From the NCBI RefSeq assembly GCF_001601815.1, contig NZ_LUKG01000009.1, positions 7,307 to 46,158 of the forward strand: a stretch of DNA of 38,852 nt. Reading direction: 5' to 3'. This document shows positions 13,897 through 31,573 of the stretch, piece after piece. The stretch comes from Flavihumibacter sp. CACIAM 22H1 (GTDB lineage Bacteria; Bacteroidota; Bacteroidia; Chitinophagales; Chitinophagaceae). Under the pieces are notes generated by a model, which searched no databases, had not been told where the DNA came from, and was given only the letters and a program-made list of their open reading frames with translations. A program made the translations under genes and the position numbers. The number at the start of each line of letters is the position of its first letter. Position 1 is the stretch's first letter.

Positions 13897-15117
13897 GTGG
13901 GGTTTAAAGACGAAATATTTAATTCTCTAAGCGGTTATAGCGCGCTTTATAAAAATGAACTGCTTACCAATGTGTTACCCTTTTGGATGAAATATAGCCC
14001 CGATACGGAACTGGGTGGTTATTTCAACTGCCTGAACCGCGATGGCTCAGTATATGATACCGATAAGTTTATGTGGCTGCAGGCAAGAGAGGTCTGGACA
14101 TTCGCCACCATGTACCAACAGGTGGAACCAAAGGAAGAATGGCTGGAAATGGCTCGTCAGGGCATGGATTTTATTCTTCGGCATGGAAGAGATGAACAGG
14201 GGAATTGGTTTTTTTCCTTAACACGGGATGGAAAGCCCCTCACCCAGCCACATAGTATTTTCAGCGATTGTTTTGCAGCCATGGCATTAAGTATCCTGGA
14301 TAAATCAATGCCCGGCAACGGGTATGCCGAAGTAGCCCTGCAAACCTTCGAGAATATCCTTAAAAGAAAAAACAATCCCAAAGGAATTTACAGCAAAGAA
14401 TACCCGGGCACCCGACCGGTAAAAGGATTTGCACTGCCCATGATCCTGTCAAACCTCGCACTTGAAATGGAACATATCCTGGGTAAGCATCGGGTAGATG
14501 CATTTATACCGGAAGTTATTCATGAAGTAATGGAAGTGTTTTATAAACCGGAACTGGGCCTGATCCAGGAAAATGTTGCCCAGGATGGTTCATTGGTAGA
14601 CAGTTTTGAAGGCCGCCTGCAAAATCCCGGTCATGCCATCGAAGCCATGTGGTTTGTCATGGACCTGGGGGTTCGTCTGCAGGATGAAGCGCTGATTAAA
14701 AAAGCTGTTGATATCGCCCTTCGGGAAATTGAATATGGGTGGGATCAACAGTATGGCGGTATATTTTATTTTATGGACCGCAAAGGATTTCCGCCCCAGC
14801 AACTGGAATGGGATCAGAAGCTTTGGTGGGTTCACCTGGAATCCCTGGTGGCAATGGCAAAAGGATTTGAACTAACCCATGATATCCGTTGCTACAACTG
14901 GTTTGTAAAACTGCATGAGTATACCTGGAATCGGTTCAGAGACACCGAGTATGGCGAATGGTACGCCTATCTTAACAGGCAGGGTGATGTGTTATTGCCC
15001 CTGAAAGGAGGTAAATGGAAATGCTGTTTTCATGTACCCCGTGCCTTGTTGAATATATGGAAGTCGATGGAAACTGTTAGTACAAAAAAAGAAACAACCA
15101 AAACAAATACCTATTAA
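13897..15117 (+). CDS. N-acylglucosamine 2-epimerase (AGE) superfamily sugar epimerase
   Basis: Protein of 406 residues with an (alpha/alpha)6-barrel AGE architecture and no signal peptide, so cytoplasmic. The start is GTG at 13897; an ATG two bases earlier is out of frame and soon stops. Conserved features are FMWLQAREVWTF (58-69) with the substrate-binding Arg64, GHAIEAMWF with His246, WVHLESL with His313, and CCFHVPR with His379. His246 and His379 match the proton-transfer pair of AGE and cellobiose 2-epimerase. These enzymes interconvert C2 epimers of glucose/mannose-type sugars or their N-acetyl forms, or of beta-linked disaccharides; which applies is not clear. It is the first gene of the operon, 8 bp before susC, so it probably acts on the imported product. 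Confidence 0.88.
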   Translation: MGFKDEIFNSLSGYSALYKNELLTNVLPFWMKYSPDTELGGYFNCLNRDGSVYDTDKFMWLQAREVWTFATMYQQVEPKEEWLEMARQGMDFILRHGRDEQGNWFFSLTRDGKPLTQPHSIFSDCFAAMALSILDKSMPGNGYAEVALQTFENILKRKNNPKGIYSKEYPGTRPVKGFALPMILSNLALEMEHILGKHRVDAFIPEVIHEVMEVFYKPELGLIQENVAQDGSLVDSFEGRLQNPGHAIEAMWFVMDLGVRLQDEALIKKAVDIALREIEYGWDQQYGGIFYFMDRKGFPPQQLEWDQKLWWVHLESLVAMAKGFELTHDIRCYNWFVKLHEYTWNRFRDTEYGEWYAYLNRQGDVLLPLKGGKWKCCFHVPRALLNIWKSMETVSTKKETTKTNTY

Positions 15118-15125
15118 CTGTAATT

Positions 15126-18100
15126 ATGGAAAACGGAAGAAAAGCTCCAAACAAATGGAAACAATGGAGGGGGGGCGCCCTGCTGTTGTTTTGTTTTTCC
15201 CTGCTTGCGGTAGCTGCTCAGTCGCAATCGCTTGTAAAGGGTATGGTAACCGGACCTAACGGGTCGCCCGCTCCTGGTGTTACCATTCAGCAAAAAGGCG
15301 CCAAATCCCAAACCCTTACTGATTCACTGGGCAGGTTTTCAATTTCGGTTACTGATCCCATGCAGGCCGTATTGATTTTTTCCTCCGTTGGTTTTGAAAC
15401 CAAAGAGCTTGTCCTCAATGGCAAAACCACGCTTAATGTATCGCTTGAAATTGTTACCAAAATGCTCGATGAAGTGGTGGCAGTAGGATATGGTACGGTA
15501 AAAAAACGCGATGTAACAGGAGCCGTAGCTTCTATAAAGGGCGAAGAGCTGATGAAAACCAACCCTACCAGTATCAACCAGGCTCTACAGGGTAAAATAG
15601 CGGGGGTAATAGTTAGTCAGGCAGATGGAGCACCCGGCGCAGGCATCAATATTCAGATAAGAGGCGCCAACTCCTTTTCTACCAGTACGGAACCTCTTTA
15701 TGTAATCGATGGGGTTCCTTTCAATGCCGGTGAAGCACCTGGTACTGATTTTGCCACCAAGCAAACCAATAACCCGCTGAATCTTATCAACCCGCGTGAT
15801 GTTTTGTCTATAGAAGTATTAAAAGATGCATCTGCAACCGCCATTTATGGATCGCGCGGAGCCAATGGAGTAGTGCTGATCACAACAAAAGGAGGTAGCA
15901 GAAACCGTACCCGGGTAGAATTCAGTTCCACTACCACCGTATCCCGGGCAGTAAGAAAAATTGCTGTGCTGGATGCGGCTACCTACGCCGAATACCGCAA
16001 TGAAATGATCCGTAACCGCTATCTCTACGACGGCGGTGAATTTGTTGCCGATTCGGTACTGCCCTTTCCCATTCCAGGCCGCTGGGCTTATACGAGGGTA
16101 ATAGATCCGGTTACCGGCCAGGAAAAAATTATTGACAGCGCCTATAATCCCAGTCCACAGGATTATCGCGATGGGTATATGAACAACGGAACAAACTGGC
16201 AAGACCAGATTTTCCAAACCGCTCTGTCGCAGGACTATAACCTGAGTATTTCAGGTGGTGATGAAAAAGGAACCTACCTGTTTTCCATTGGAGCCCTGGA
16301 TCAGCAGGGTATTATTCGCAATTCATATTTTAAGCGCTATAATATCCGCTCCAATATAGATCGTAAAATAAACGACTGGTTCAGTGTCGGAAATTACCTG
16401 ACCGCTTCCAAATCGGATAACCGGATGGCCCGTACCAATTCTGAAACCTATGGCATTATTCCTTCTGCACTGGCATTTACTCCTACACGTACCGTATTTG
16501 ATCCAGATGAGCCTTCCGGTGTTTCTGAAGATTTTTCCAATGGCTTATCTAATCCCTATCTCTATGTACGTACCGCAAAAAATGTATTGGGTTCTATGAA
16601 CCTGTATAACTCCAGTTTTGCAAAGATAAAGCTGACCGATTTCCTGACCTTTAAGCAGGACCTGGGGTATGCGTACAGTTATAATCAGCGCGATATTTAT
16701 TATAACCGGTTTATCAGCGGTGGAATTGCTCCTGTTAATGGATACGGTATGCAGTCTGATAATTATTACCAAAGCGTGCTGCTGCAATCTACCCTTAATT
16801 TCAGTAAACAACTTTCCGCTAATCACCGTATTGATGGCGTAGCCGGTTATACTTATGAAAATGTTACCTGGGGTGGAAAAACTATGAGCGGCTCTAATTT
16901 TCCCAACGATATTACAGAGAACAATGATATGGGAGCCGCCTTGCTGCAAAACATCAACTCCTCCAGTAAAGGCAAAAGTTCCCTGATGTCTTTCCTGGGA
17001 CGGGTTAACTATTCGCTTTTCGATCGGTACCTGATTACCGCTAACTACCGGAGAGATGGATCCAGCCGGCTTTCCAAACAGGGCCGCTGGGCCGATTTTT
17101 ATTCGGTTGCCCTGGCCTGGAAACTTACGGAAGAAGCGTTTATTAAAAACCTGGATTTCTTTGATGAGCTGAAGATCAGGGCTGGTTATGGCGAAACCGG
17201 TAACCAGGGTGTAAGTGCCTATGCTACCCGCTCCAGAATGACTGCGCAAAACTATCCTTACAACGGCTCGCTTCAAAGTGGTTACGCGGAAGATCGTTGG
17301 GGTGGACCGGCGGCGCCCAATCTTAAATGGGAAACAACCCGTCAATTCAATATCGGGTTAGACCTTGGATTTCTTAATAACCGGATCAATTTCGTTGTTG
17401 ATTATTACCATAAGAAAACCGCTGATCTGTTGCAATATGCCTTTATTCCGCTCAGTACCGGTTTCTCCAGCATTGCTACCAATTATGGCAATGTTGAAAA
17501 TAAAGGATTGGAGATCGCAGGAAGTTTCGGCATTATCCAGCGCCCTGATTTTACCTGGAAAATGGATGCTAATATTTCCTTCAACCGAAATAAAATAAGT
17601 GGGCTCGATGCAGATCAGTTCTCAGATGTAGTCTGGGGTCTGGAAAGCATGTTTCTTCGTAGAAACGGCTACGCCATCGGTACAATTTATGGGTACCAGG
17701 AAAATGGATTTTATGACAATGAAGCCGAAGTGCGGGCAGACCCTGCCTATACCAATGAGTCTGATGCGAAAATAAAAAGCATGGTAGGGCAGGTTAAATA
17801 CCGCGATATCAATAGAGATGGCATTATCGATGACCGGGATAAAACCATTATTGGAAATACCAATCCCGATTTTGTATATGGTATGACCAATACAGTTACC
17901 TACAAAAAGTGGAGCTTTAGTTTCTTTTTGCAGGGTATCCAGGGAAATGATATCCTGAACACCAACCTGCGGGCATTTGATATGGCGTCTACTACCAATA
18001 TGCCACAGTTTGTATGGGATAACCGATGGACACCTGAGAGCAAACAGGCTGCACAGTTTCCCCGCGGCGACATCACTTTTACACGTAGCCTTCGCGCTTC

Positions 18101-18356
18101 GGACCGGTTAATAGAAAACGGTTCTTATCTCCGGTTGAGAAATGTATCCGTTGGGTATCGTTGGGATCGTCCCATTCGCCAGATCAGTTCGCTCAATTTC
18201 ACCCTGTCTGCAAATAACCTGGTTACCTTCACCGATTACAGGTGGTATGATCCGGACGTGAATGCATTTGGAAGTGATCCTGCCCGCCGCGGGGTGGATA
18301 TGGCTTCCTATCCATCTGCACAGACCTTCACCTTTGGCCTGCAAGTGGCATTCTAA
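15126..18356 (+). CDS. SusC/RagA-family TonB-linked outer-membrane transporter
   Basis: Protein of 1076 residues. After a signal peptide (hydrophobic core about 17-33) comes a carboxypeptidase-regulatory-like domain (about 38-115), then the plug with the family signatures VVAVGYGTVKKRDVTGAVA and PTSINQALQGKIAGVIVSQ, the LKDASATAIYGSRGANGVVLITTKGG block, and a long beta-barrel ending in Phe, as expected for assembly by the BAM complex. It lacks the N-terminal STN domain, so it is a transporter without sigma/anti-sigma signalling. With the SusD partner 33 bp downstream it should import oligosaccharides across the outer membrane using TonB energy. The substrate is not predictable from sequence alone. 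Confidence 0.97.
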   Translation: MENGRKAPNKWKQWRGGALLLFCFSLLAVAAQSQSLVKGMVTGPNGSPAPGVTIQQKGAKSQTLTDSLGRFSISVTDPMQAVLIFSSVGFETKELVLNGKTTLNVSLEIVTKMLDEVVAVGYGTVKKRDVTGAVASIKGEELMKTNPTSINQALQGKIAGVIVSQADGAPGAGINIQIRGANSFSTSTEPLYVIDGVPFNAGEAPGTDFATKQTNNPLNLINPRDVLSIEVLKDASATAIYGSRGANGVVLITTKGGSRNRTRVEFSSTTTVSRAVRKIAVLDAATYAEYRNEMIRNRYLYDGGEFVADSVLPFPIPGRWAYTRVIDPVTGQEKIIDSAYNPSPQDYRDGYMNNGTNWQDQIFQTALSQDYNLSISGGDEKGTYLFSIGALDQQGIIRNSYFKRYNIRSNIDRKINDWFSVGNYLTASKSDNRMARTNSETYGIIPSALAFTPTRTVFDPDEPSGVSEDFSNGLSNPYLYVRTAKNVLGSMNLYNSSFAKIKLTDFLTFKQDLGYAYSYNQRDIYYNRFISGGIAPVNGYGMQSDNYYQSVLLQSTLNFSKQLSANHRIDGVAGYTYENVTWGGKTMSGSNFPNDITENNDMGAALLQNINSSSKGKSSLMSFLGRVNYSLFDRYLITANYRRDGSSRLSKQGRWADFYSVALAWKLTEEAFIKNLDFFDELKIRAGYGETGNQGVSAYATRSRMTAQNYPYNGSLQSGYAEDRWGGPAAPNLKWETTRQFNIGLDLGFLNNRINFVVDYYHKKTADLLQYAFIPLSTGFSSIATNYGNVENKGLEIAGSFGIIQRPDFTWKMDANISFNRNKISGLDADQFSDVVWGLESMFLRRNGYAIGTIYGYQENGFYDNEAEVRADPAYTNESDAKIKSMVGQVKYRDINRDGIIDDRDKTIIGNTNPDFVYGMTNTVTYKKWSFSFFLQGIQGNDILNTNLRAFDMASTTNMPQFVWDNRWTPESKQAAQFPRGDITFTRSLRASDRLIENGSYLRLRNVSVGYRWDRPIRQISSLNFTLSANNLVTFTDYRWYDPDVNAFGSDPARRGVDMASYPSAQTFTFGLQVAF

Positions 18357-18389
18357 CGCGTTCCATCAACAGCTAAAACTCGGATAACG

Positions 18390-20096
18390 ATGAAATATTT
18401 ATCAAAACTATTTTTTATACTGATCACTGCCAGCCTGTTTTTTTCCTGTAAAAAAACGCTCGATGAGCAGGCTTATACCTTTGTATCGGGCGAAGAACTG
18501 GTAAAAACGGGTAATTACCGTGAGTTGGTAGCAGGTGCCTATAATACCCTTAGCTTTCCATTTGAATGGGGTAATTACCACAATATTGTAAATTTTGATG
18601 TGGATTATCAAACCGGTCCAACCTGGGCATTTGGAGAGCTGGGGGCCGGAAATTTCTATGAAAACGGCTCAAGCCGTAGTTTTTATCAATCCTATTATCA
18701 ATCTATCCACCGGGCCAACTACCATTCCAGCCTGGTGGCAAGGATGGCTATTCCTGAAGATGAAAAAAACAATGCCATCGGTGAGTTGAAGTTTCTGAAA
18801 GCATGGGCCTATTTCAACCTGGTTCAATTTTATGGAGACCTGGTCTTGTATAAGGTGTCGGTATCAGAAGGCGCTCCACTTTATATGCCGCGCTCTTCCA
18901 TTAAAGAAGTATACGAACATATTATTGAGGAACTCAAAATTGCAGAAACCTCGATGTATTCCACAAAGGATGCCAAGTACCAGAAAGGACATCCTTCCAG
19001 TGGCGCTGCCAAAGCCTTGCTGGCAAAAGTTTATTGCACCATCGGTTCAGCTTCCATGCCCACCGGTAGCCAGGTCTCTGTGATGGGTGGACTCGCTTTT
19101 TATTATGATGATGAAAACAATAAGGTGCTGGTGCCCTACCCGTCGAAGCAGAATTTTGCCAAAAACCAGGTGGCTGGTTACGAATCCTTTGATTCTAAGG
19201 AATACTATCGCCTGGGTATGGAAAAAGCAAAAGAACTGATTGAGTCGAATCAGTTTGAATTATACGGATCACAAGCGGAATTATGGTCGCCTTCCAGTAA
19301 AAATGGGGCAGAGTTCATTTTTACACTTCAAACCATTGCAGGAAATGCTACACTCAGCAATTTTGTAGCTACGGATTATTGCGGTTATTATGCACCCACC
19401 GGCGCACTGCTCAATGGATACTATGTGCAAAGAGACCACTGGTACCAGTTGTTTGATGAGGGCGATGAGCGAATTACCTGGGGTGTTATGCACCGGGTGC
19501 CTTACACCTATGATGCAGCTACCGGTACGTTGTATTATTCCTATTATCCTGCAAAGGACAGTGTAAAAGTAAGACTTGGTATGGATGGTTATAAACCAAC
19601 AGACCAGCTGCGGTACGACGCGCATTTATATGGTTCAAAACTTATGAAATTCCGCCAGGTATCCAATGCCCTGGATGGTAACCGTACAGATTTCAACTTT
19701 CCCTTTATCCGGTATGCGGAAGTACTGTTATTGTATGCAGAAGCCGATAATGAAGTAAATGGCCTGCCCTCAGCATACGCTATTCAGCAGGTGGAGAAAT
19801 TAAATACCCGCAACAAATCGGTACTGGCATCTTCCATCGGGGCCAACCAGCCCTGGACAACCGAATCTTTCCGGTCGTATATACTGGAAGAACGCGCAAA
19901 GGAGTTTGCCGCAGAAGGTATTCGCCGATTTGATCTGCTTCGTTGGGGTATTTATCTGCAGACAATGAACGCCCTTGGTGGTACAGATGAAAATGGTGTT
20001 ATAAAACGTCGTGAACAACGGCATTTATTGATGCCCCTGCCTGCAGACGAAGTAAATACCAATCCATTTATTGAATCGAATAATCCGGGCTGGTAG
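18390..20096 (+). CDS. SusD/RagB-family surface glycan-binding lipoprotein
   Basis: Lipoprotein of 568 residues with Cys20 after ASLFFS and a KK-rich start to the mature chain. Typical SusD elements are an N-terminal helical SusD-like region with the FLKAWAYFNLVQFYGDL segment, a middle region with HPSSGAAKALLAKVY, and the C-terminal signature LEERAKEFAAEGIRRFDLLRWG. It forms a lid on the SusC barrel and delivers the glycan. The order and 33-bp spacing after susC are standard for a PUL. Confidence 0.96.
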   Translation: MKYLSKLFFILITASLFFSCKKTLDEQAYTFVSGEELVKTGNYRELVAGAYNTLSFPFEWGNYHNIVNFDVDYQTGPTWAFGELGAGNFYENGSSRSFYQSYYQSIHRANYHSSLVARMAIPEDEKNNAIGELKFLKAWAYFNLVQFYGDLVLYKVSVSEGAPLYMPRSSIKEVYEHIIEELKIAETSMYSTKDAKYQKGHPSSGAAKALLAKVYCTIGSASMPTGSQVSVMGGLAFYYDDENNKVLVPYPSKQNFAKNQVAGYESFDSKEYYRLGMEKAKELIESNQFELYGSQAELWSPSSKNGAEFIFTLQTIAGNATLSNFVATDYCGYYAPTGALLNGYYVQRDHWYQLFDEGDERITWGVMHRVPYTYDAATGTLYYSYYPAKDSVKVRLGMDGYKPTDQLRYDAHLYGSKLMKFRQVSNALDGNRTDFNFPFIRYAEVLLLYAEADNEVNGLPSAYAIQQVEKLNTRNKSVLASSIGANQPWTTESFRSYILEERAKEFAAEGIRRFDLLRWGIYLQTMNALGGTDENGVIKRREQRHLLMPLPADEVNTNPFIESNNPGW

Positions 20097-20122
20097 TTGT
20101 TTAACGCATAATCATTAAGGAA

Positions 20123-21259
20123 ATGAAAAAGACTATACTAACGCATCTCTCTTTCTTTTCAGTGCTCCTGTTACTGGTGCTGATAGCATCCTGTAAAAAA
20201 GACGAGGCAAAGCCTGCTGTGCCTGAAATACTTTCCGTATCAACCATCAAAAAAACCGACAGTTTAATATATGAAGGTAATATGGGCGACTGGATTGCAA
20301 TTCATGGCACCAGTCTGGCAAATATTATGGAAATAAAACTCAATGATGTACTGGTTGACCTGGAAGAGATCTATGAAGAAAACGGCGTGGTTTACCTGCA
20401 GATACCGGTTAAACTGCCAATAGAGATAACGGATAAATTATACCTCACAACAAAAGGAGGAGCGTCTGTTCTGAATTTTAAGGTAAACAGCCCCGACCTG
20501 GAACTGACCGGCATGTTCAATGAATATACCCTGCCCGGAGATACCATTCGTATTTATGGCAAATTTCTTCAGTTGTACGAGGTGGATGCCAGTAATTCTG
20601 TAGTGCTGTTTGGAGAAATGGAATCGCCGGTTATTGCTGCAACAGATAATTACCTCACCGCCAAAGTGCCGGCCACTGTGCAGCCCAATGTAAAAGTGAA
20701 ATTGAGGAATAATAAATACAACGCGGAAGCTGTTTGTCCGGGTTATTACCAGGATAAAAATCATGTGATAACATCGTTTGACAGCGATTTCCCTTATACA
20801 AGCGGAACGGGACAGCAATGGGTAGGAGCCGGTCCGGAACCAAAGCCCACATCCGGTAACTATATCCGGTTTGAGGTTGATCAACAGAAATACCCCAATG
20901 GATTAGGCTGGTTTTACCTGATGGAAAACAGTTACGATTATCAGCTCGATATGATTCAGCATCCCGAAAAATATGTGTTGAAGTTTGAGCTGAATATGGG
21001 GCTGCCTATACGTAAAACCAATTTCTTTATCTATTACTATTGGGCGGTTGCCCCCAGCCCGATCGGCGGCGATTTTTTTACCGTCCAAAACCTGGGGCGC
21101 TGGCAAACAATTGCAATTCCCCTGGAAAAAATAATTCCGATGGGCAATACCGGAACGTCTACCAGCTTTTCCTTGAATTTCCGGGTTGAAAATTTTTCTC
21201 CGGTTGAACAGGTGGCTATGTATTTTGACAATTTCAGGATCTACAAAAAAGGTGAATAG
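20123..21259 (+). CDS. Surface glycan-binding lipoprotein (SGBP-B-like)
   Basis: Lipoprotein of 378 residues: LIASC with lipidated Cys24, then IPT/TIG-like immunoglobulin domains (about 35-125 and 125-210; VPEILSVSTIKKTDS and DWIAIHGTSLANI mark the first), and a C-terminal beta-sandwich (about 215-375, WVGAGPEPKPTSGNYIRFE to the FDNFRIYKKGE end) that resembles the glycan-binding domain of SGBP-B proteins. It is predicted to be displayed on the cell surface with aromatic residues in the binding site. The position directly after susD is typical. It carries no catalytic residues I can see. Confidence 0.82.
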   Translation: MKKTILTHLSFFSVLLLLVLIASCKKDEAKPAVPEILSVSTIKKTDSLIYEGNMGDWIAIHGTSLANIMEIKLNDVLVDLEEIYEENGVVYLQIPVKLPIEITDKLYLTTKGGASVLNFKVNSPDLELTGMFNEYTLPGDTIRIYGKFLQLYEVDASNSVVLFGEMESPVIAATDNYLTAKVPATVQPNVKVKLRNNKYNAEAVCPGYYQDKNHVITSFDSDFPYTSGTGQQWVGAGPEPKPTSGNYIRFEVDQQKYPNGLGWFYLMENSYDYQLDMIQHPEKYVLKFELNMGLPIRKTNFFIYYYWAVAPSPIGGDFFTVQNLGRWQTIAIPLEKIIPMGNTGTSTSFSLNFRVENFSPVEQVAMYFDNFRIYKKGE

Positions 21260-21290
21260 TTCATAAATTTTCTAATCCAAGCATCGTTTT

Positions 21291-23270
21291 ATGTTTCATT
21301 TTTTAAGGTTTTTACTGGTACTGTGTACAATTGCTGCTTTACCTGTACAGTCTATTGCAAAAGAAGTGTATATCGATAAACTGGACCTTCGCCTTCTTTT
21401 GCAGGACTGGGGCGCGCCGGTTATTAATAAATCGGTTATTGGCAGTCCTTTGTCTGTCGGCGGGGTTCGTTATTCCCGGGGTATTGGTACACACTCGGTA
21501 AGTCGGTTTATGTTAAAGCTGGGAGGTAAAGCCAGTTTTATTAGCGGCTTTGTAGGAGCCGACGATCGCAATGATTATACCATGGATATGGCCTTTAAAA
21601 TCCTGGCCGATGGTGAAGTGATCTGGACCAGTAATATTATGCGTAAAGGCATGCCTGCCCAACCATTCAACGTTGATCTTAAAGGAAAACAACAAATAGT
21701 ATTAATGGTAACGGAGGCCGGAGATGGTATTATGTACGATCATGCCGATTGGCTGGAAGTGAAAATTGAAACATCCGGAGAAGTAATTCCACTGAGTGCT
21801 TATCCCGAATCTATTGCTAAAGAAAAATACATTCTTACCCCTAAGCCAGCGGATAAACCCCGCATCAATTCTCCCAGCGTTTTTGGGGTACGGCCTTCCA
21901 ATCCTTTTCTTTACCAGGTGGTAGCTACTGGAAAAAGGCCCATGAAGTTTACCGCCTACCAGTTGCCAAAAGGCTTGTCAATTGATGAAACTACCGGGTT
22001 AATTACCGGAAAAATTGAACAGGCAGGCAGGTACTATATGGTAGTGCGCGCCGATAATGAAGCAGGCGGTGATTTTAGGCGTGTTACGGTGGAAGTAGGC
22101 GATAAAATTGCACTTACCCCGCCAATGGGCTGGAACAGCTGGAACTGCTGGGGCATTAACGTAGACGAACAAAAAGTTAAAGATGCCGCTGATTTTATGA
22201 GCCGTGAACTGGTTAACCATGGATGGTCTTATATCAATATTGATGATGGCTGGGAAGCTAAAACAAGAACGAAAGAAGGCGAATTGCCGGGTAATGAGAA
22301 ATTTCCTGACTTTAAACGACTAGCGGATTATATACACGCAAAGGGCTTGAAATTTGGGATCTATTCCTCACCCGGTCCCCGAACCTGCGGAGGATACCTG
22401 GGTAGTTATGGCCATGAAGCCATTGATGCCAAAACCTGGGCAAATTGGGGAGTAGATTACCTGAAATATGATTATTGCCTGTATACCGACGTTGCCCCTG
22501 TGCCTACCGAAACCATTATTAAAGCACCCTATGTACTGATGGGAGAGGAGTTGAAAAAACAAGAACGGGATATCGTTTATTGTGTTGGATACGGTGCACC
22601 GAATGTATGGTACTGGGGGCAGGAAGCCAATGGTAACCAGTGGCGTACTACCCGCGATATTACCGATGATTGGAACGTTGTGGTGGCAATAGGCGCTTTT
22701 CAGGACCTGATGGCGCCAGTAACCAAACCAGGTCAGTACAATGACCCCGATATGCTGGTGGTTGGTAAACTAGGCGGTGGATGGGGAGCTAAAATGCACG
22801 ATTCCAAACTTACGGCCGACGAGCAATACAGCCACCTGAGTCTTTGGAGTTTACTCTCTTCTCCACTGCTGATCGGTTGTGATATGAATGCAATGGATGC
22901 ATTTACCCTAAACCTGCTTACCAACGACGAAGTAATTGCAGTAAACCAGGATCCATTGGTTAAGCCGGCAAAAAAAATACTTACTAAAAACGGCCAGGTT
23001 TGGTCGAAAGAACTGGAAGATGGCTCAATTGCAGTGGGTTTTTTTAATATGGATCCATATTATATTCTTTGGGATAAATCTCGCGAAACTGCCATCCAGC
23101 AGGAGCAGTATGAAATTTCAGTAGATTGGACACAACTTGGTATAAAAGGTGAATACCAGGTAAGAGATCTTTGGACACAAAAGGATATTGGAAAGGCTAC
23201 TCAAAAATACACTGCCAAAGTTCCTTACCACGGGGTGAAGTTCCTGAAATTAACACCGGTTAAAAAATAA
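21291..23270 (+). CDS. GH27 glycoside hydrolase with NPCBM domain (alpha-galactosidase-like)
   Basis: Protein of 659 residues, signal peptide about 1-23. Domains: NPCBM carbohydrate-binding module (about 25-160), an Ig-like putative cell-adhesion domain (about 200-270), the GH27 TIM barrel (about 275-575, starting [14 protein letters not shown]) and a C-terminal beta domain. Catalytic Asp394 in LKYDYC is the nucleophile, and Asp456 in [11 protein letters not shown] matches the acid/base of human alpha-galactosidase A. The segment at 431-443 ([13 protein letters not shown]), where galactosidases normally have C-E-W-G or C-Q-Y-G, is altered and longer by a residue. GH27 includes alpha-galactosidases, alpha-N-acetylgalactosaminidases, beta-L-arabinopyranosidases and isomaltodextranases, so the specificity is open. 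Location is periplasm or surface. Confidence 0.92.
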
Positions 23271-23307: not shown

Positions 23308-24372
23308 ATGAATAGAAGAAATTTTCTGAAATATTCCGCTTTGGGAACAGCTGCCCTGTCGGCCACCGTTCCTGCGCTGGCAGTAACCGGTACAGGTGCC
23401 GCCAATGGAATATCCGATATAAAACCTATTGCCGGATCCTGGTTTGAATTTCAGCATTTATTACCTGCGGAAGGAGAATACTGGGATAAAGATCTTGCTC
23501 AATTTACCGAACAGCAATGGAAGGATAAGGTAAAAGAAATTAGTGAACTTGGCTTTGAATACCTGGTTATCCAGGAGGTGGCGCTCGACGGAAAATCGAT
23601 TTATCCTTCCAAGCTGGTTCCACAATATAAGTTGGGCTGTGCCGATCCCCTGGAAGCGGTATTGGCTGCAGGAGATGAGGTAGGTATGAAGTTTTTTTTA
23701 AGCAACGATTTTTGGGACGATTGCCAGAAAGGAGAATTCCTGATGACGGATCCTGGTATTAAAAAGTTGCGGAATAAAGCCATGGAAGAAATTGTAAAAA
23801 AATACGGCCACCATTCCAGTTTTTATGGATGGTATTTTCCGAACGAATCTTACCTGATGCCTTATTTTGATGAAAAATTCATCAGGTATGTAAACGAGTG
23901 TTCTCATGTAGCGCGCTCCCTGCAACCGGCTTCTTTTAACCTGATAGCACCTTATAATATTAAAGCGGAAAAATCAGATAGTCATTTTGTAAAGCAATTG
24001 GAGCGTATGAATATTGACGTTATTGCTTACCAGGATGGGGTTGGAGTAAACCATGCTAAACTGGGAGAGCCTGCCAAACATTTTGAAAACCTTTGCCGCG
24101 CTCATCAACAGGCGGCCCGTTCCAGGATCTGGGCCGATATGGAAGTATTTTATTTTGAAAAAGGAACCAAGGATAATCTGCTGCCAGCTGATTTTGAAAC
24201 AAGAATCCTGCAGCAAATGAAAGACCTTTCGCCGTTTGTAGATAAGATTTTGATTTATCAATACCTGGGCTGCTTCAATAAGCCTGGTTCCACGGCATAT
24301 GCAGGGCATCGTAACCAGGAATCAGTTCGATTGTATAATCAATACAAATCCTGGTTAGAGAAAAGAAAATAA
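23308..24372 (+). CDS. DUF4434-family secreted protein, candidate glycoside hydrolase
   Basis: Protein of 354 residues. The N-terminus [17 protein letters not shown] fits a Tat-type or lipid-free secretion signal with adjacent Arg. The chain looks like a TIM-barrel enzyme. [15 protein letters not shown] and EFLVIQE-type strands open the barrel; GWYFPNE at 174-180 (Glu180) and WADME at 275-279 (Glu279) fall at positions that would suit the acid/base and nucleophile of a clan GH-A retaining enzyme. The same two Glu-bearing motifs are found in the second DUF4434 protein of this operon. No activity is known to me for this protein; glycoside hydrolase is an inference from fold and context. It lies 37 bp after the GH27 gene. 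Confidence 0.75.
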
Positions 24373-24393
24373 TTGTTTCAAAAAATTGTACAC

Positions 24394-25941
24394 ATGACCC
24401 GATTCATTTATACCGTATTGCTGGCAGCCGGCTTCTCAATGTGTTCGCCCAAAAAAGATGGAAGCGCTGAGCAAAATCCCGGGCAGGAAATAACAAAAGC
24501 TGTTTTATTAAACAAGATAAAAGGCGGTTGGGCCGGTCAAACGATTGGCGTTACCCTTGGCTGGCCTTCTGAATTCCGCTATCTCGGTACATTTATTCAA
24601 GACTATGAAACAATAAAATGGCACGATGATTATGTGAATGAAGCAATGACCACTTTTCCTGGTTTGTATGATGATGTGTATGTAGACCTGACCTTTGTGG
24701 AGGTATTTGAAAAGTTGGGCATCAATGCTGCTGTAGACTCTTTTGGGCACGCATTTATGGGCAAAAAATATGAGTTATGGCATGCCAACCAGGCCGGCCG
24801 GTATAATTTGCAGCAGGGGATCCCGGCCGACAGCTCCGGCCATTGGTTGCACAATCCCCATGCCGATGATATCGATTTTCAAATAGAAGCAGATTTTGCT
24901 GGTCTGATGAGTCCGGGTATGCCGGGTGCTGCCACTGCTATCGCTAACAAACTTGGCCGTATCATGAATTCTGGCGATGGCTTGTATGGTGGTATTTATG
25001 TGGCCAATATGTATGCATTGGCATTCACCGATTCCGATATACCCCGTATCGTGAAAAATGCATTAAAAGTCATTCCCGAACAAAGTAAGTTTTATCAGTG
25101 CATAGCGGATGTTATCAAATGGCACCAACAATACCCCGATGATTGGAAACAGACCTGGTTTGAAGTGCAGAAAAAATGGGCGGAAGAAACGGGCTGCCCC
25201 AATGGCGTATTTCATCCACTTAATATCGATGCCAAGTTAAATGCTGCCTACGTGGTAATCGGGTTACTCTATGGAAAGGGTGACTTTACTCAAACACTGG
25301 AAATTGCTACCCGCCTGGGGCAGGATTCTGATTGCAATCCTGCCACGGCTGCCGGTGTGCTGGGTGTAATTAAAGGGTATGACAATATTCCTGCTTATTG
25401 GCTGAAGCCGTTACAGCGTGCGGAACAACGAAATTTTTCCTTTACAGATCTTTCACTCGAAAAAGTGTATGCGATCGGTTATAAACATGCCCTGGAAAAT
25501 ATTGCAGCAAATCAGGGTGATACTGCCCAGGATATTATCCGTTTTCCTGCTCCCGCGCTAACTACCGTAGAGTTTGAGGAGAATTTTGCCGGTCATCACC
25601 CGAAACAGTTTATTCCATTGGGAAAAATTTTTGCGGATGAACTGGTATTCGAAATGGAAGGTATCGGGTTTGTTATACGCGGCCATGCAGCAAAAAAAGC
25701 AGCCGATGCTCCTCCGCATGTACTACAGGCAACCCTGCTGATAGACGGTAAAGAAGTTGAAACCGCCAACTTTCCGGTTGATCCCATTTACAGCCGCACT
25801 GAATTATTCTGGCAATACCGAATGTTGCCGGGTAAACACGAGGTGCGTATCAGGGTAAATAATCCTCATCCTGCCTATGAATTCAGAACGGTAGATTGCC
25901 TGGTATACGACACTAAAAAGAATATTGGTCAGAGAAAATAA
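24394..25941 (+). CDS. ADP-ribosylglycohydrolase-fold lipoprotein with C-terminal beta domain
   Basis: The ATG at 24394 gives 515 residues; a TTG at 24373 is unlikely. Cys17 follows AAGFSM, a non-canonical lipobox. The region at about 34-340 is an ADP-ribosylglycohydrolase-like all-alpha domain: KGGWAGQTIG (43-52), DDVYVDL (93-99) and QDSDCNPATAAGVLG (310-324), where Asp311 and Asp313 match the metal-coordinating DxD of the family. The usual following Thr is Cys here. Residues about 375-515 are a beta-rich domain that may bind a ligand. Known members cleave ADP-ribosyl-arginine or -serine and related alpha-ribosyl bonds. In a PUL, secreted with glycan enzymes, an alpha-linked furanoside or other glycosyl bond is more plausible than ADP-ribose. 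The function is inferred. Confidence 0.85.
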   Translation: MTRFIYTVLLAAGFSMCSPKKDGSAEQNPGQEITKAVLLNKIKGGWAGQTIGVTLGWPSEFRYLGTFIQDYETIKWHDDYVNEAMTTFPGLYDDVYVDLTFVEVFEKLGINAAVDSFGHAFMGKKYELWHANQAGRYNLQQGIPADSSGHWLHNPHADDIDFQIEADFAGLMSPGMPGAATAIANKLGRIMNSGDGLYGGIYVANMYALAFTDSDIPRIVKNALKVIPEQSKFYQCIADVIKWHQQYPDDWKQTWFEVQKKWAEETGCPNGVFHPLNIDAKLNAAYVVIGLLYGKGDFTQTLEIATRLGQDSDCNPATAAGVLGVIKGYDNIPAYWLKPLQRAEQRNFSFTDLSLEKVYAIGYKHALENIAANQGDTAQDIIRFPAPALTTVEFEENFAGHHPKQFIPLGKIFADELVFEMEGIGFVIRGHAAKKAADAPPHVLQATLLIDGKEVETANFPVDPIYSRTELFWQYRMLPGKHEVRIRVNNPHPAYEFRTVDCLVYDTKKNIGQRK

Positions 25942-25969
25942 ATAGAAGCCGGTTACGGGCCCTGATATT

Positions 25970-27349
25970 ATGAGAGCATATTTACTGTGTTTGCTGGTGC
26001 TGGTTAGCAGCCCGCGGTTAATGGCACAATTGCCGTTGAAATTGCCGGCATTGTTGTCTGATCATGCTGTATTGCAACAAAACGCATCCGTAAGGCTTTG
26101 GGGAAAAGGCCCGGGTTCTTTTGAGTTGAAAATTGTTGGCTCCTGGCAGCCCGAAGACACGCTGCGCGTAATGATCGGCCCGGAATGCAGTTGGCTGACA
26201 ACCATCCAGACACCTGCTAACAAAGGACCGCATACCATTACTTTTATCTGTGGTAAAGAAACCCAAACCATTCATGATATCGTAATGGGGGATGTTTGGC
26301 TTTGCGCCGGTCAGTCAAACATGGAATACAGCAGCCCTCACTCTATTGAACCCAATGAGGAACTGCGTTTTTTTACCGTCGATAAAAACTACGATAACCT
26401 GCCTTTTGCTGAATGCAGCGGTAAATGGGTGAAATGTGATTCAGCAACGGCTGCAGCCTTCAGTACGGTAGGACTTTATTTCGGCAGGCAACTGAACCGG
26501 GTAAACAAATCGCCAGTGGGTTTAATCGGCGCTTATTGGGGAGGAACCAATATACAGACGTGGATGCCTGGAGAGCTCTTTAAGGAAAGCGGGTTGGCCA
26601 AAACCATTGAGTATATTGAACCCTATGGTTGGGCGCCTAAAGGAGTGGCAAGCCTGTACAATGGTATGATCTATCCATTGAAGAACTACCAGCTAAAAGG
26701 TTGTATCTGGTACCAGGGAGAAGCCAATGTTGATTGGGACTGGGACCGCTATGCCGATCTTTTATCAGCAATGGTGCAATCCTGGAGAAATGAATTTGGA
26801 ACAGCCTTTCCCTTTTTTGCGGTTGAAATTGCCCCCTGGAACGGTTATAAACCGGTACGTGGCGCAGCATTGAGAGAACAGGTTCAACTGGCGGCCCAAC
26901 GCATACCAGATTTTGGTTCAATTGGAATTGCCGACCTGGTACCTGATACCGATGATATTCATCCATCCAGGAAATCCGAAGTGGGTATACGGCTGGCAGA
27001 ACTGGTATTGAAAAAAATATACAAGGTAGAAGCATTACAGGTAGATCCTCCGCAAATCACAGCGGTTAGTTTTCAGGGTAACTACGCTTATGCCACCTGT
27101 ACTGCCAGGGGAGTGTTGAGAAGTAACGCTGAACGTATAGGCGGTTTTCAGCTTGCCGGAACAGACGGCGTATTTTATCCTGCCAAAGCCAACCTTCTTA
27201 AAGGCAACAGGATTGAAATTTTTGCGCCGGGTCTATTGCGTCCTACTGCTTTGCGGTATTGCTTTGAGAATGCGTCCGTTCCCGATTTATCGGATAATAC
27301 CCGCTTACCAGTAAAACAGTTCAGAACCGATAATTATCCGATTAATTAA
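25970..27349 (+). CDS. Sialate O-acetylesterase-family (SGNH) esterase
   Basis: Protein of 459 residues with a signal peptide ending near LMAQ (20). The opening LKLPALLSDHAVLQQ and CxxGQSNME with Ser116 are the SASA-family SGNH signature, and the second catalytic block is DDIHPSRK (Asp328, His331). Members remove acetyl groups from sialic acid or other glycans, including xylan. The mature chain begins with a beta-strand domain before the hydrolase core, as is typical. The neighbouring glycosidases suggest it deacetylates the PUL glycan before cleavage. It lies 28 bp after the ADP-ribosylglycohydrolase-like gene and 2 bp before the next gene, so translational coupling is likely. Confidence 0.9.
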   Translation: MRAYLLCLLVLVSSPRLMAQLPLKLPALLSDHAVLQQNASVRLWGKGPGSFELKIVGSWQPEDTLRVMIGPECSWLTTIQTPANKGPHTITFICGKETQTIHDIVMGDVWLCAGQSNMEYSSPHSIEPNEELRFFTVDKNYDNLPFAECSGKWVKCDSATAAAFSTVGLYFGRQLNRVNKSPVGLIGAYWGGTNIQTWMPGELFKESGLAKTIEYIEPYGWAPKGVASLYNGMIYPLKNYQLKGCIWYQGEANVDWDWDRYADLLSAMVQSWRNEFGTAFPFFAVEIAPWNGYKPVRGAALREQVQLAAQRIPDFGSIGIADLVPDTDDIHPSRKSEVGIRLAELVLKKIYKVEALQVDPPQITAVSFQGNYAYATCTARGVLRSNAERIGGFQLAGTDGVFYPAKANLLKGNRIEIFAPGLLRPTALRYCFENASVPDLSDNTRLPVKQFRTDNYPIN

Positions 27350-27351
27350 TC

Positions 27352-28659
27352 ATGAAAAAAATTTTAATAGGCGTTGCCTGGCTGGTGCTGCACTTGAGTT
27401 GCACACAAAGGGAAGTGCTTACGGCTACTGCAAGTGCTGTCAAGAAACCCAAATCAGATGGTACGTTTATCCAGAGCTACCTGGTAAGAAACTGGACAGA
27501 TGAGCGCTGGCAGCAGGAGTTTGCCGCATTAAAGCAAGCCGGTATGCATTACCTGGTGCTGGGCTCCACGCTAAATACCGATAAGGAAGGTAAAATGTAT
27601 TCCATCTTTCCCAGCAAGTTGCCGGGGGTAGTAAACCGCTATGGGAATGACCTCGTGGAAAATTGTTTGCGGAATGCTAAACTTGCCGGCATTAAAGTGT
27701 TTATTGGACTGAATTTTGACGAAAAATGGTGGACTACTCCTATTAGCTCACCTTGGATAACGGAACAGATGGAGTTGGGGAACCGGCTTGCCAAAGAACT
27801 GGTTGATCGGTATAAAAGCAGGTATGGTGGTACCATGTATGGATGGTATTGGGTATGGGAAGTTGATAATATTAAAGCCACCACACCAGCAGCCCATGCA
27901 CAGCTGGCTGCCGCATTAAATATCAACCTCCATTTTCTTAACGGGCTTACCCCTGATATGCCCTTTATGTTGTGCCCGTTTTTTAATTACCGGCTGGGCA
28001 GTTCGCAGGAAACGGCCAACATGTGGAAAAATGTATTCAGCGCAGCCAATTTTAAAGAAGGCGACATCTTCGCACCCCAGGATTGTATAGGTGCAGGCGG
28101 ACTCGAAATGCAGGTGCTGGACGAATGGTTTGCTGCGCTTAAAACTGCGGTTGATACAAAACCCGGGTTGTTATTTTGGGTAGATACCGAAACCTTTGAC
28201 CAGCGGTTCTGGACCAGCGCACCCCTCGATCGTTTTGTGAAACAGATGGAAATTGTAGCCCCCTATGTATCTAATTATATAACATTTGCCTACAGCCATT
28301 ATTATAGTCCCGGGTATAATAATCCGCAATTTCATAAAGATTACCTGTATTATACCCGGCAGGGGAAACTGCCGGAAGAGGACGTGCAGGGTGGTATCGA
28401 ACATACAGTAGTGAACCGCCAAAACGATCATTCTTTAGAATTCAGTTGGTCGGTAAAATCATCCACTGAAAAGAATGTGGCCGGTTATTATATTTTTCTC
28501 AACGATTCGCTTTATGCCGATTGTCAGTACAAGCCTGGGAAGCAACTAACCACCCGTATAAAAATTAACACCGGGCTAGTGCGTTCTGATAATGAAATTT
28601 ATATAGCACCTTATTCTGCTTCGGGTAAAATGGGTGCCGGTATCCGCCAGCGATTTTGA
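27352..28659 (+). CDS. DUF4434-family lipoprotein, candidate glycoside hydrolase
   Basis: Lipoprotein of 435 residues (LHLSC, Cys17). The TIM-barrel-like region covers about 38-325. It carries GWYWVWE at 164-170 (Glu170) and WVDTE at 276-280 (Glu280), the counterparts of Glu180 and Glu279 in the first DUF4434 protein. Overall similarity to that protein is low, so it is a distant paralogue rather than a recent copy. The C-terminal about 85 residues look like a fibronectin type III domain (FSWSVKS, then AGYYIFLN and NEIYIAPYSASGK). As a retaining glycosidase, its bond specificity is unknown. It starts 2 bp after the acetylesterase gene. Confidence 0.72.
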   Translation: MKKILIGVAWLVLHLSCTQREVLTATASAVKKPKSDGTFIQSYLVRNWTDERWQQEFAALKQAGMHYLVLGSTLNTDKEGKMYSIFPSKLPGVVNRYGNDLVENCLRNAKLAGIKVFIGLNFDEKWWTTPISSPWITEQMELGNRLAKELVDRYKSRYGGTMYGWYWVWEVDNIKATTPAAHAQLAAALNINLHFLNGLTPDMPFMLCPFFNYRLGSSQETANMWKNVFSAANFKEGDIFAPQDCIGAGGLEMQVLDEWFAALKTAVDTKPGLLFWVDTETFDQRFWTSAPLDRFVKQMEIVAPYVSNYITFAYSHYYSPGYNNPQFHKDYLYYTRQGKLPEEDVQGGIEHTVVNRQNDHSLEFSWSVKSSTEKNVAGYYIFLNDSLYADCQYKPGKQLTTRIKINTGLVRSDNEIYIAPYSASGKMGAGIRQRF

Positions 28660-28689
28660 TAGGAATTAGTAATGGTTTAATTGAATGCT

Positions 28690-30126
28690 ATGTATAAAAA
28701 AGTGCAGGTAGTTTTAGTTTTTTCAGGGTTATTGATGTTAGTCAATTCGGCTATGGCTCAAAGCCGGTTGATAACAGGTATTGTATCTCAGCAGTTCACT
28801 AAAATGGGCATTGCGGAAGTAGCGGTAACCGATGGATTTTCGGTGGTTAAGACCAATAAAAAAGGTGCGTATTCTTTTTATGCCCATCCGGATGCGGACT
28901 TTGTTTACCTTACTATTCCGGCAGGCTACCAGATTCCTGCCGATCGGTTTTTACCGCGGTTTTACCAGCGCCTTGAACCTGCGCGGAAAAAATATAATTT
29001 TGAATTATTAAAGGAAGCGGTGGATGATTCTCACCATATCCTGGTGGTTGGCGCCGATCCTCAACCAGCCAACGCAGAAGCAGCGGAAAAATGGTCCAGG
29101 TTTTCGAAAGACTATTTTAAACCAGTTTTAGCGGCGTATAAAAACCTGCCTAAAGTGGGCCTGCTCTGTGGCGATATTGTGGGCGATGATCTGACCTTGT
29201 TCGCTAATCATAAAAAATCGGTGGAGCAGATGGGGTTTCCTACATTCCAGGTGCTGGGAAACCACGATGAAGATTATGATGCCCGTACCGACGAGGGTTC
29301 ACAGAAAACCTTTCGTGCTAATTTCGGTCCCGAGTACTATTCTTTCAATAAGGGCAGCATACACTATGTTGTATTGGATAATGTGTTTTACCAGGGTATG
29401 CATTCCCGTTATATGGGGTATGTTACGGAACGTCAGCTGAAATGGCTGGAGAATGACCTTAGTTTGGTTCCGGTAGGATCTACAGTAATTGTGGCGGTGC
29501 ATATTTCCTTTGAATATGACCGGGAGAAACCCGCAGGCTCAGAAGGGGTAGCGCTGCCCGATGATAGCCCCGTTATAAATGCGGAGCATTTTTATAAAAT
29601 ACTGGAGCCCTATAAAGTGCATATAATGTCTGGGCATACGCATTGGAACCAGGCTTTTGAACGGAAAAATATCTTTCATCATATACACGGTGCCATTTGT
29701 GGAGCCTGGTGGGGGGGAGAAACCTCTTTCGATGGGGCTCCTCTGGGTTACGCTGTTTACGAGATTCGAAAAGATAGTATTTCCTGGTATTTTCAAAGTG
29801 CCGGCAAAGATAGAAATCACCAAATGCAGCTTAGTTATGAAGATTCTACCGGCGCAGTGATCGCAAATGTCTGGAACTGGGATGCCAAATGGAAAGTAGA
29901 ACTGGTGGCAGATGGTAAAAACATGGGAGAAATGACCCGGTTTATAGGTTATTCGCCGGTAATGGCGGCCTATTATCAATCGCTTCCGCCCGGTCAACCC
30001 TGGATGAAACCTGTGCTGACTGCTCATTTATTCAGGACTAAGGTTAATAAAACGGTTAAGCAGGTAGTAGTTAAAGTAACGGACCGGTTCGGTACGGTAT
30101 ACGAAGAATTTTTGCAGCTTCGCTGA
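28690..30126 (+). CDS. Secreted calcineurin-like metallophosphoesterase
   Basis: The ATG at 28690 is preferred over a TTG nine bases earlier and gives 478 residues with a signal peptide ending near SAMAQ (24). The first about 80 mature residues form a carboxypeptidase-regulatory-like N-terminal domain, the central domain is a dinuclear-metal phosphoesterase, and the last about 130 residues form a C-terminal beta domain. Metal ligands: DPQ at 123-125 (Gln where the usual DxH has His), GDIVGDD (161-167), GNHDE (190-194), an internal VHISFE and SGHTH. It could remove phosphate mono- or diesters from the glycan or from import products. It lies 30 bp after the second DUF4434 gene. Confidence 0.85.
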   Translation: MYKKVQVVLVFSGLLMLVNSAMAQSRLITGIVSQQFTKMGIAEVAVTDGFSVVKTNKKGAYSFYAHPDADFVYLTIPAGYQIPADRFLPRFYQRLEPARKKYNFELLKEAVDDSHHILVVGADPQPANAEAAEKWSRFSKDYFKPVLAAYKNLPKVGLLCGDIVGDDLTLFANHKKSVEQMGFPTFQVLGNHDEDYDARTDEGSQKTFRANFGPEYYSFNKGSIHYVVLDNVFYQGMHSRYMGYVTERQLKWLENDLSLVPVGSTVIVAVHISFEYDREKPAGSEGVALPDDSPVINAEHFYKILEPYKVHIMSGHTHWNQAFERKNIFHHIHGAICGAWWGGETSFDGAPLGYAVYEIRKDSISWYFQSAGKDRNHQMQLSYEDSTGAVIANVWNWDAKWKVELVADGKNMGEMTRFIGYSPVMAAYYQSLPPGQPWMKPVLTAHLFRTKVNKTVKQVVVKVTDRFGTVYEEFLQLR

Positions 30127-30181
30127 TGCAAGGCCGCTAATAAGGTAGTTTTTGTAACATGGAATAGTTGAAACAAACATT

Positions 30182-31573
30182 ATGAAGGAAAAGAATATCG
30201 GGTACGTGATTTTTTTAACCATCGTGGCAGCATTAGGTGGCTTCCTGTTTGGATACGATACGGCAGTAATATCCGGCACCATTGAACAGGTGACCCTGCA
30301 ATACCAGCTTAGTTCTCTGCAGCAGGGTTGGTACGTGGGCTGTGCGTTGGTGGGTTCTATGGCAGGGGTATTGATGGCAGGTTACTGCGGAGAAAAATTC
30401 GGTCGGAAAATGTCGCTGTTTTTTTCGGGCAGTTTATTCCTGTTATCAGGTATTGGCTGTGCCATTGCGCATACGATTGATGCATTGGTGATATACCGGA
30501 TCATAGGTGGTGTTGCAATCGGAATGGTTTCCATTATTTCGCCCATGTATATTTCGGAAATTGCGATAGCCAGTTACAGGGGCCGGTTGGTGGCTATGTA
30601 CCAGCTGGCTATAACTGCCGGTTTTTTAGGAGCATACCTGGTCAATTACCAATTGCTGGAATATGCAGTTTCCGGCGTTGCCTTTGAGAATAATACCCTT
30701 CAAACGGTATTTGTAACGGAGGTATGGCGTGCGATGCTGGGCATGGAAGCACTGCCGGCATTGCTATTCCTGCTGATCCTCTTTTTTATTCCGGAAAGCC
30801 CGCGTTGGTTGCTCTTAAAAAATCAGCAGGCGAAAGCAGTAGGTATTCTTGCAAAAATTAATGCAAGCCAGTTGTTGGCAGAGGAAGAGGCGGCTGTTAT
30901 TCAATCAAAAATGGCCGGACAAAAAAGCCATACCGGGTACAGGGTACTGCTTCAATCCAATTATTTCAAAGTAGTGGTAATTGGGGTAGCGATTGCCATT
31001 TTAGGACAGTTTATGGGGGTGAATGCGGTGCTTTATTATGGGCCTACTATATTTAAAAACAGCGGACTGTCGGAAGGTGATTCCCTGTTTTACCAGGTAT
31101 TGGTTGGGTTGGTGAATATGCTTACGACGGTATTGGCTATTTTCATAATTGATCGGGTAGGGCGCAAGATGTTGGTCTACTGGGGTGTTTCGGGGATGAT
31201 AGTTTGCCTGGCGCTGATTGGTTTATATTTCTGGCGCGGGCTTGCCTGGTCCTGGCCGAACGAGGTATTGTTGTTTTTATTTCTATCCTATGTTTTTTGT
31301 TGCGCGGTTTCTGTGTCGGCAGTAGTATTTGTGTTGTTATCGGAACTGTATCCCAATGCTATTCGGGCTATGGCAATGTCAATTGCAGGTTTTTCCCTTT
31401 GGGTAGGAACCTACCTGATTGGCCAGTTAACACCCTGGATGCTGGAGGAGTTAACACCGCATGGAACATTCTGGCTATTTGCCGCTATGTGCCTGCCCTA
31501 TATGTATATTGTATGGAAGCATATTCCTGAAACTGCCGGCAAATCGCTCGAAGAAATTGAGGCTATGTGGTAA
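30182..31573 (+). CDS. MFS sugar porter (sugar/H+ symporter, XylE-like)
   Basis: Protein of 463 residues with twelve predicted membrane helices and the sugar-porter signatures: GGFLFGYDTAVISGT near the N-terminus, the GRKM repeat after helix two (GEKFGRKMSLFF), PESPRWLLL after helix six, DRVGRKML after helix eight, and PETAGKSLEEIE at the C-terminus. It should carry a monosaccharide (or small sugar) across the inner membrane. It is the last gene of the PUL, 55 bp after the phosphoesterase gene, and stops 6 bp before the convergent hydrolase gene. Together with the first gene, the AGE epimerase, it supports cytoplasmic use of a hexose, pentose or amino sugar. Confidence 0.95.
   Translation: MKEKNIGYVIFLTIVAALGGFLFGYDTAVISGTIEQVTLQYQLSSLQQGWYVGCALVGSMAGVLMAGYCGEKFGRKMSLFFSGSLFLLSGIGCAIAHTIDALVIYRIIGGVAIGMVSIISPMYISEIAIASYRGRLVAMYQLAITAGFLGAYLVNYQLLEYAVSGVAFENNTLQTVFVTEVWRAMLGMEALPALLFLLILFFIPESPRWLLLKNQQAKAVGILAKINASQLLAEEEAAVIQSKMAGQKSHTGYRVLLQSNYFKVVVIGVAIAILGQFMGVNAVLYYGPTIFKNSGLSEGDSLFYQVLVGLVNMLTTVLAIFIIDRVGRKMLVYWGVSGMIVCLALIGLYFWRGLAWSWPNEVLLFLFLSYVFCCAVSVSAVVFVLLSELYPNAIRAMAMSIAGFSLWVGTYLIGQLTPWMLEELTPHGTFWLFAAMCLPYMYIVWKHIPETAGKSLEEIEAMW

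Follow-up and report, generated by a model that had tools for sequence, protein, structure and literature searches.

Polysaccharide utilization loci (PULs) for β-mannans that encode a cellobiose 2-epimerase presumably share SusC/SusD, an α-galactosidase, an esterase, an epimerase and a major facilitator superfamily (MFS) transporter with the locus described here, an eleven-gene operon at positions 13897–31573 of a 38,852-nucleotide stretch of Flavihumibacter sp. CACIAM 22H1 (contig NZ_LUKG01000009.1; the whole stretch is called the window below). Unlike these PULs, the operon encodes an epimerase of the N-acylglucosamine 2-epimerase (AGE) type, and neither GH26 nor GH130 was identified among its eleven proteins by profile scans. 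Sialic-acid (nan) loci with AGE are a second point of comparison. Some share AGE and a SASA-type esterase gene with the window; they differ in that the window's genome holds no sialate lyase NanA over the cut-off and general profile scans assigned none of the eleven proteins to a sialidase family, no genome-wide sialidase search having been run. Finally, excerpts of PMC11188070 describe the roles of PhoD and GlpQ in the hydrolysis of teichoic acid, with the calcineurin-like PhoD degrading it. The window shares the calcineurin-like phosphoesterase class with these Bacillus subtilis enzymes, a likeness seen at superfamily level, and its own enzyme differs in having MetallophosN/C domains and in sitting in a PUL.

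The operon is best read as a PUL for a glycan that contains N-acetylmannosamine (ManNAc) and carries phosphate esters, α-galactosyl-type branches and acyl esters; the likeliest candidate is a Gram-positive-type wall glycopolymer, for instance the wall teichoic acid linkage region. We put this reading forward tentatively, at somewhat less than an even chance. The substrate is inferred, with the amino-sugar part being the firmest, the phosphate part less firm and the wall origin the least. Under this proposal, SusC, SusD and a surface glycan-binding protein (SGBP) would bind and import glycan fragments, the SASA-type esterase would strip acyl groups, the GH27 enzyme would take off α-galactose or α-N-acetylgalactosamine (GalNAc), and the metallophosphoesterase would cleave phosphoesters. 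Both DUF4434 barrels (DUF4434a and DUF4434b) would liberate ManNAc, and a lipoprotein with the ADP-ribosylglycohydrolase fold would cleave one more bond. The MFS porter would then take up the sugar, AGE would convert ManNAc to N-acetylglucosamine (GlcNAc) for NagB-type catabolism encoded elsewhere, and a ROK protein would sense the amino sugar. The sharper claim, that the DUF4434 proteins are ManNAc-releasing glycosidases (N-acetylmannosaminidases) partnering AGE in a bacterial wall glycopolymer PUL whose ADP-ribosylglycohydrolase-fold lipoprotein has turned into a glycan hydrolase, is doubtful at this stage.

By its anatomy, with a SusC/SusD pair among co-directional glycan enzymes, the locus is a PUL. 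The ORF (open reading frame) table and the profile matches bear out the eleven co-directional genes of the initial annotation, with the same coordinates and the families named there. All lie on the plus strand, separated in operon order by 8, 33, 26, 31, 37, 0, 28, 2, 21 and 55 bp. The 0-bp gap hinges on a TTG start at 24373; with the ATG at 24394 it becomes 21 bp, and the range of 2–55 bp given initially is then fair. While all eleven genes are real, a divergent ROK-family regulator with an N-terminal winged helix had been overlooked (12470–13738, minus strand; PF00480, E 2.5e-55; HTH_24, E 1.4e-6), which lies 158 bp from the AGE gene.

The synteny that the initial annotation proposed to look for was found in two genomes of another genus. 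The first, ‘Sphingobacteriales bacterium 46-32’ (G051, MKTY01000014.1), belongs to the same family as the window and has the order ROK (divergent), AGE, SusC, SusD, SGBP, GH27, DUF4434a, ADP_ribosyl_GH, metallophosphoesterase, SASA, DUF4434b, metallophosphoesterase, GDPD, third DUF4434, MFS and, after the MFS gene, NagB-PIG-L. From AGE through ADP_ribosyl_GH the window order is kept at 77–90% protein identity; identity is 59% for SASA, 67% for DUF4434b and 52 and 75% for the two metallophosphoesterases, one of which is relocated ahead of SASA. The second genome (G137), of the same genus as G051, has the equivalent genes from SusC to MFS in fragments. Unlike the window, both carry a second metallophosphoesterase, a GDPD and a third DUF4434. 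Because two genomes of another genus share its genes, the eleven-gene operon is a real conserved unit. DUF4434a is rare, being present in 3/395 genomes of the phylum including the own one (E 1e-10); at E 0.001 it was matched in 16/147 family genomes, mostly weakly, and neither of two further genomes from the window's genus (G008, G108) matched DUF4434a. A scan of genome contigs returned 76 loci, spread over Bacteroidota, Acidobacteria, Clostridia and other groups. L039, L041 (Prolixibacter bellariivorans), L046 and L050 come closest to the window in content; four loci on short contigs (L037, L038, L045, L056) say little. Among the 11 clostridial loci printed, the neighbours look generic except in L078; in L062–L066, L068–L069 and L071–L073, DUF4434a has no visible signal peptide and often stands beside a 521–527 aa protein whose start is similar in those read.

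The amino-sugar part of the reading starts from the epimerase (13897–15117, plus strand; PF07221), for which no signal peptide was seen by eye or pattern. It scores 642.6 bits against the NCBIfam N-acylglucosamine 2-epimerase equivalog NF052547 (cut-off 600), compared to 72 bits against the cellobiose 2-epimerase model (cut-off 800) and 34 bits against the mannose isomerase model. Its nearest solved chains by far are the AGEs 6f04 and 2gz6, and it reaches 537 bits against a solved AGE versus 81 against the best cellobiose epimerase chain. As the AGE model is passed and the other two score far lower, the protein is a true N-acylglucosamine 2-epimerase, with ManNAc/GlcNAc as its expected substrate pair. 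The window contains no sugar kinase, as annotated initially. Little follows from this: the operon is faced by a ROK regulator, and the neighbours of the module in some relatives include ROK kinase-like genes, a SIS protein or NagB-PIG-L. In the own genome, a NagB-type gene (633–641 aa) lies on a different contig.

DUF4434a (23308–24372, plus strand; PF14488, E 3.9e-62) has a twin-arginine motif at its N-terminus by eye and pattern, and DUF4434b follows at 27352–28659 (plus strand; PF14488, E 8.2e-57). The DUF4434a model (pLDDT 89.7) is an eight-stranded barrel with E180 after strand 4 and E279 at the end of strand 7, both invariant in 55 sequences. We take a barrel with glutamates after strands 4 and 7 to be the clan GH-A layout, and the protein is predicted from its model to be a clan GH-A-like glycosidase. 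Its best match by both sequence and fold is BT_0435 of Bacteroides thetaiotaomicron, itself a DUF4434 structure (PDB 4h41, E 1.3e-15), which conserves both Glu positions; identity in the structural alignment is about 15%, and ‘putative alpha-L-fucosidase’ is the annotation of that protein. GH5 β-mannanases, Clostridioides difficile Cwp19 and GH164 β-mannosidases come next, and β-glucuronidases, β-galactosidases and GH29 fucosidases rank lower. Since TM-scores of 0.5–0.6 to those structures show fold only, the manno preference is a hint.

In a set of 148 phylum genomes, 16 have AGE (E 1e-80) and 10 have DUF4434 (E 1e-5), one of the latter being a weak partial match of 30 bits (G169). All nine genomes with a full-length DUF4434 fall within the 16 AGE genomes (Fisher p 1.6e-10, phylogeny uncorrected); including G169 gives 9/16 versus 1/132 (p 1.5e-9). 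Counted by genus and without the own genome, DUF4434 occurs in 6/12 genera with AGE versus 0/70 (p 2.6e-6, likewise uncorrected). Both genes lie within 20 kb of each other in five of the nine genomes (G000, G257, G207, G208, G268).

From the AGE side, a search of 296 genomes gave 38 AGE matches, of which 37 neighbourhoods were fetched, the 38th being the window; L165 was kept although the ORF picker missed its AGE. DUF4434 is present in seven (L152, L156, L164, L166, L168, L174, L188), against about 0.01 expected from a rough rate; the DUF4434 of G257, 19 kb from AGE, lies outside the fetched stretch (L157) and is not among the seven. Going by the starts of the ORF picker, the DUF4434 ORF overlaps the AGE ORF in the clostridial L078 and in L164, and the two adjoin in L053, L166 and L174. 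On a tree of 41 AGEs, the DUF4434 label requires nine changes, at least six of them forced by supported branches, compared to three for NanA; five of its 12 DUF4434 rows (window, L036, L049, L053, L078) had been picked for having DUF4434. Because of these nine changes, the pairing is, on the tree's evidence, one that occurs in several separate AGE lineages. The epimerase does come first in the operon, as annotated initially; the telling feature is rather its pairing with DUF4434, in either order. A second type of AGE locus was also seen (L152, L153, L157, L188), with an FAD-dependent oxidoreductase, SusC and a divergent ROK gene, to which L152 and L188 add DUF4434 and MFS genes.

The phosphate part rests on the secreted calcineurin-like metallophosphoesterase of the window (28681–30126, plus strand; MetallophosN/C; PF16370, PF16371, PF00149) and on its counterparts in relatives. 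All five GH27 and DUF4434a loci with ample flank (L036, L039, L041, L046, L050) carry at least one phosphoester enzyme. Pfam identifies GDPD in L036 and a further phosphoesterase type in L039; clustering identifies GDPD in L039 and L041 and the further type in L041, L046 and L050. In L050 (12024–14192), a calcineurin-like phosphoesterase is fused to DUF4434b in a single 723-aa ORF. The GDPD of the relatives is, we assume, of the class of GlpQ. NAGPA, a phosphodiester glycosidase, stands beside DUF4434 or AGE in six loci (by Pfam in L053, L166 and L174, by clustering in L051 and L054, and by a local profile in L176) and occurs in 6/9 DUF4434 genomes versus 42/139 others (one-sided p 0.033). In L166, L174 and L176, NAGPA and AGE, with DUF4434 in the first two, adjoin an MFS gene; L166 further has GH38 (Pfam), a GH3 gene and a sub-cut-off BadF-type match, and L174 has Amidase_3 beside AGE/NAGPA. 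This cluster looks like wall recycling in another family.

A phosphoesterase enrichment calculated with locally built profiles was set aside, as the profiles derive from the test loci themselves. These profiles matched the metallophosphoesterase in 2, the second phosphoesterase in 4, GDPD in 3 and NAGPA in 3 of 20 loci (nine loci in total after manual joining), compared to 0/20 for the SusC control loci, which were the best-scoring SusC of each genome and not random picks. Pfam Metallophos was matched in 5/108 sampled proteins versus at most 2/108 in controls (108 sampled per set, of 148 and 177), a modest excess. Because the local profiles are biased to the test set and the unbiased counts are 5 versus at most 2, the case is not rested on this enrichment, and statistical support for the phosphate link is modest.

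The remaining enzymes may suit a branched and acylated polymer. The GH27 protein (21291–23270, plus strand; PF16499, E 5.6e-55; with NPCBM and He_PIG domains) retains both Asp aligned to those of solved α-galactosidases, which places it in the family and which we take to be the catalytic pair. However, it has no Cys-Glu-Trp segment as in the known enzymes, showing Cys-Val-gap-Gly-Tyr instead. In GH27 α-galactosidases this segment presumably sits near C2 of galactose, and in the human enzymes its position separates the use of α-galactose from that of α-GalNAc; judged from the alignment, use of GalNAc or another sugar is possible. The ADP-ribosylglycohydrolase-fold protein (24373–25941, plus strand; PF03747), a lipoprotein by lipobox pattern, has Asp motifs conserved in five sequences. 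Its model (pLDDT 72.1) has DraG and ARH3 among the best fold matches, and the β-sandwich at its C-terminus shows weak matches to CBM36, CBM6 and CBM35. Since it is a lipoprotein in a PUL with a carbohydrate-binding-module-like sandwich, a glycan rather than ADP-ribose is plausible as its substrate. The SASA-type carbohydrate esterase (25970–27349, plus strand; PF03629) has carbohydrate and sialate esterases as nearest solved chains, sialate O-acetylesterases among them.

Excerpts of PMC8035078 describe the wall teichoic acid linker as GlcNAc-ManNAc on phosphate and some teichoic acids as carrying galactose, and excerpts of PMC6801904 describe other wall polymers with galactosylated ManNAc-GlcNAc repeats and O-acetyl on the terminal repeat. 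With regards to the glycans suggested in the initial annotation, the phosphorylated and acetylated ones fit better, while galactans, galactomannan and arabinogalactan fit less well than a phosphate-bearing N-acetylhexosamine glycan.

Several observations weigh against the proposed reading, the modest Metallophos excess being one of them. In the same excerpts of PMC6801904, the galactosylated ManNAc-GlcNAc polymers are without the phosphodiesters typical of teichoic acids, and no single polymer is shown to combine all features. The own genome has no NAGPA match, and GDPD (GlpQ class) is absent among the window proteins scanned, while present in G051, L039 and L041. L041 also has 3-keto-disaccharide hydrolase and oxidoreductase genes, which the proposal does not explain. 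AGE and DUF4434 are distant or on separate contigs in four of the nine genomes (G275, G158, G177, G272), and the E. coli control rows match DUF4434 but not AGE; E. coli, we assume, handles ManNAc as the 6-phosphate. Furthermore, NanA-like genes (DHDPS/NanA family, in 10/37 AGE neighbourhoods) and DUF4434 do not significantly exclude each other around AGE (p 0.65); mutual exclusion was accordingly rejected as a candidate pattern, one neighbourhood (L188) having both.

The same mechanism could act on another source, namely a phosphate-containing capsule, exopolysaccharide or eukaryotic phosphoglycan in which ManNAc or other N-acetylhexosamines occur. AGE, GH27, SASA and the phosphoesterase suit any such polymer, and the phosphate enzymes differ among relatives. 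Cell-wall genes (Amidase_3, GH3) adjoining the AGE/NAGPA module speak for a wall origin, but only in L166 and L174, and we consider another source unlikely, though it is the alternative that survives best. It is less likely again that the PUL serves a different glycan, with AGE belonging to general GlcNAc/ManNAc metabolism and its pairing with DUF4434 being merely statistical. The four genomes in which the two genes are unlinked and the E. coli DUF4434 without AGE fit this explanation; the gene overlaps, the adjacencies and the occurrence of AGE in 9/9 genomes with full-length DUF4434 do not.

A galactomannan PUL is disfavoured and quite improbable. Here, GH27 would remove α-galactose, DUF4434 would be a mannanase, SASA would deacetylate, and the epimerase would act on mannobiose or mannose. 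The GH5 and GH164 enzymes that follow BT_0435 among the fold matches favour it, as does the fact that the AGE superfamily includes cellobiose 2-epimerases used in mannan PULs. However, both the model scores and the solved chains place the epimerase with AGE by a wide distance, GH26 and GH130 were not identified among the eleven proteins, and the phosphoesterases and the NagB neighbours would be left unexplained.

As a source of ManNAc, sialic acid was considered as well. In the own genome (completeness 97.3%), no NanA exceeds the cut-off, the best match scoring 97.2 bits versus 382, and for this reason the ManNAc handled by the window's enzymes is probably not derived from sialic acid. Three DHDPS-family matches were found in this genome, one in a hydroxyproline-type cluster, one weak and a third that to us reads like DapA. 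The first cluster (L118, contig C3) combines a proline racemase, DAO, DHDPS and an aldehyde dehydrogenase, as in hydroxyproline-type catabolism; its neighbours are a DUF885 protein, a SusD-like gene and a SusC-like match. A sialoglycan locus, with SASA as sialate O-acetylesterase and AGE handling sialic-acid-derived ManNAc, is thus a weak and very improbable explanation, which the nearest solved SASA relatives and the ten NanA-like neighbours of AGE favour, but which the low NanA score, the lack of a sialidase family among the eleven proteins and the position of the window AGE outside the NanA-linked groups of the tree oppose.

The import genes complete the operon, all on the plus strand: the SusC-type TonB-dependent transporter (15126–18356; TIGR04056, 855.6 bits), the SusD-type lipoprotein (18390–20096; PF07980, PF14322), the SGBP with a lipobox by pattern (20123–21259; PF18329, E 6.8e-14) and the sugar-porter MFS transporter (30182–31573; PF00083, TIGR00879). 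In SusD and DUF4434b, the hydrophobic stretch is followed by a Cys that the lipobox pattern did not flag, and GH27 was flagged in what is taken as a false hit. Between the ROK and AGE genes, 3 promoter-like sites were found versus 2.1 expected, and no terminator was found at either operon end. Behind the ROK gene, an ECF sigma factor and a 209-aa protein without a Pfam match over the cut-off (11360–12476) may be unrelated. Downstream, Pfam matches neither of two ORFs of 529 and 329 aa (34540–37133); the latter overlaps a glutamine amidotransferase-type ORF at 37027. PADLOC gave no match for five proteins.

The enzyme set had been called unusual, and the literature searches agree: ‘DUF4434’, ‘ADP-ribosylglycohydrolase’ with ‘polysaccharide utilization’, and ‘N-acetylmannosaminidase’ each returned no paper, in searches with most subscription journals outside their reach. 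Teichoic acid with PUL, Bacteroid and GH27 returned none either. By title, a search on BT_0435 returned only salmon and other unrelated work, and N-acetylmannosamine with PUL, epimerase and phosphodiesterase only rumen grass degradation. Epimerase with SusC and SusD gave titles only on Elizabethkingia and Flavobacterium.

If the proposal is true, DUF4434 would become a candidate enzyme family for the release of ManNAc from glycans, and a non-sialic source of ManNAc would be at hand for AGE genes that lack a NanA-like gene nearby. It would also suggest how some Bacteroidota-type bacteria may feed on the walls of other bacteria.

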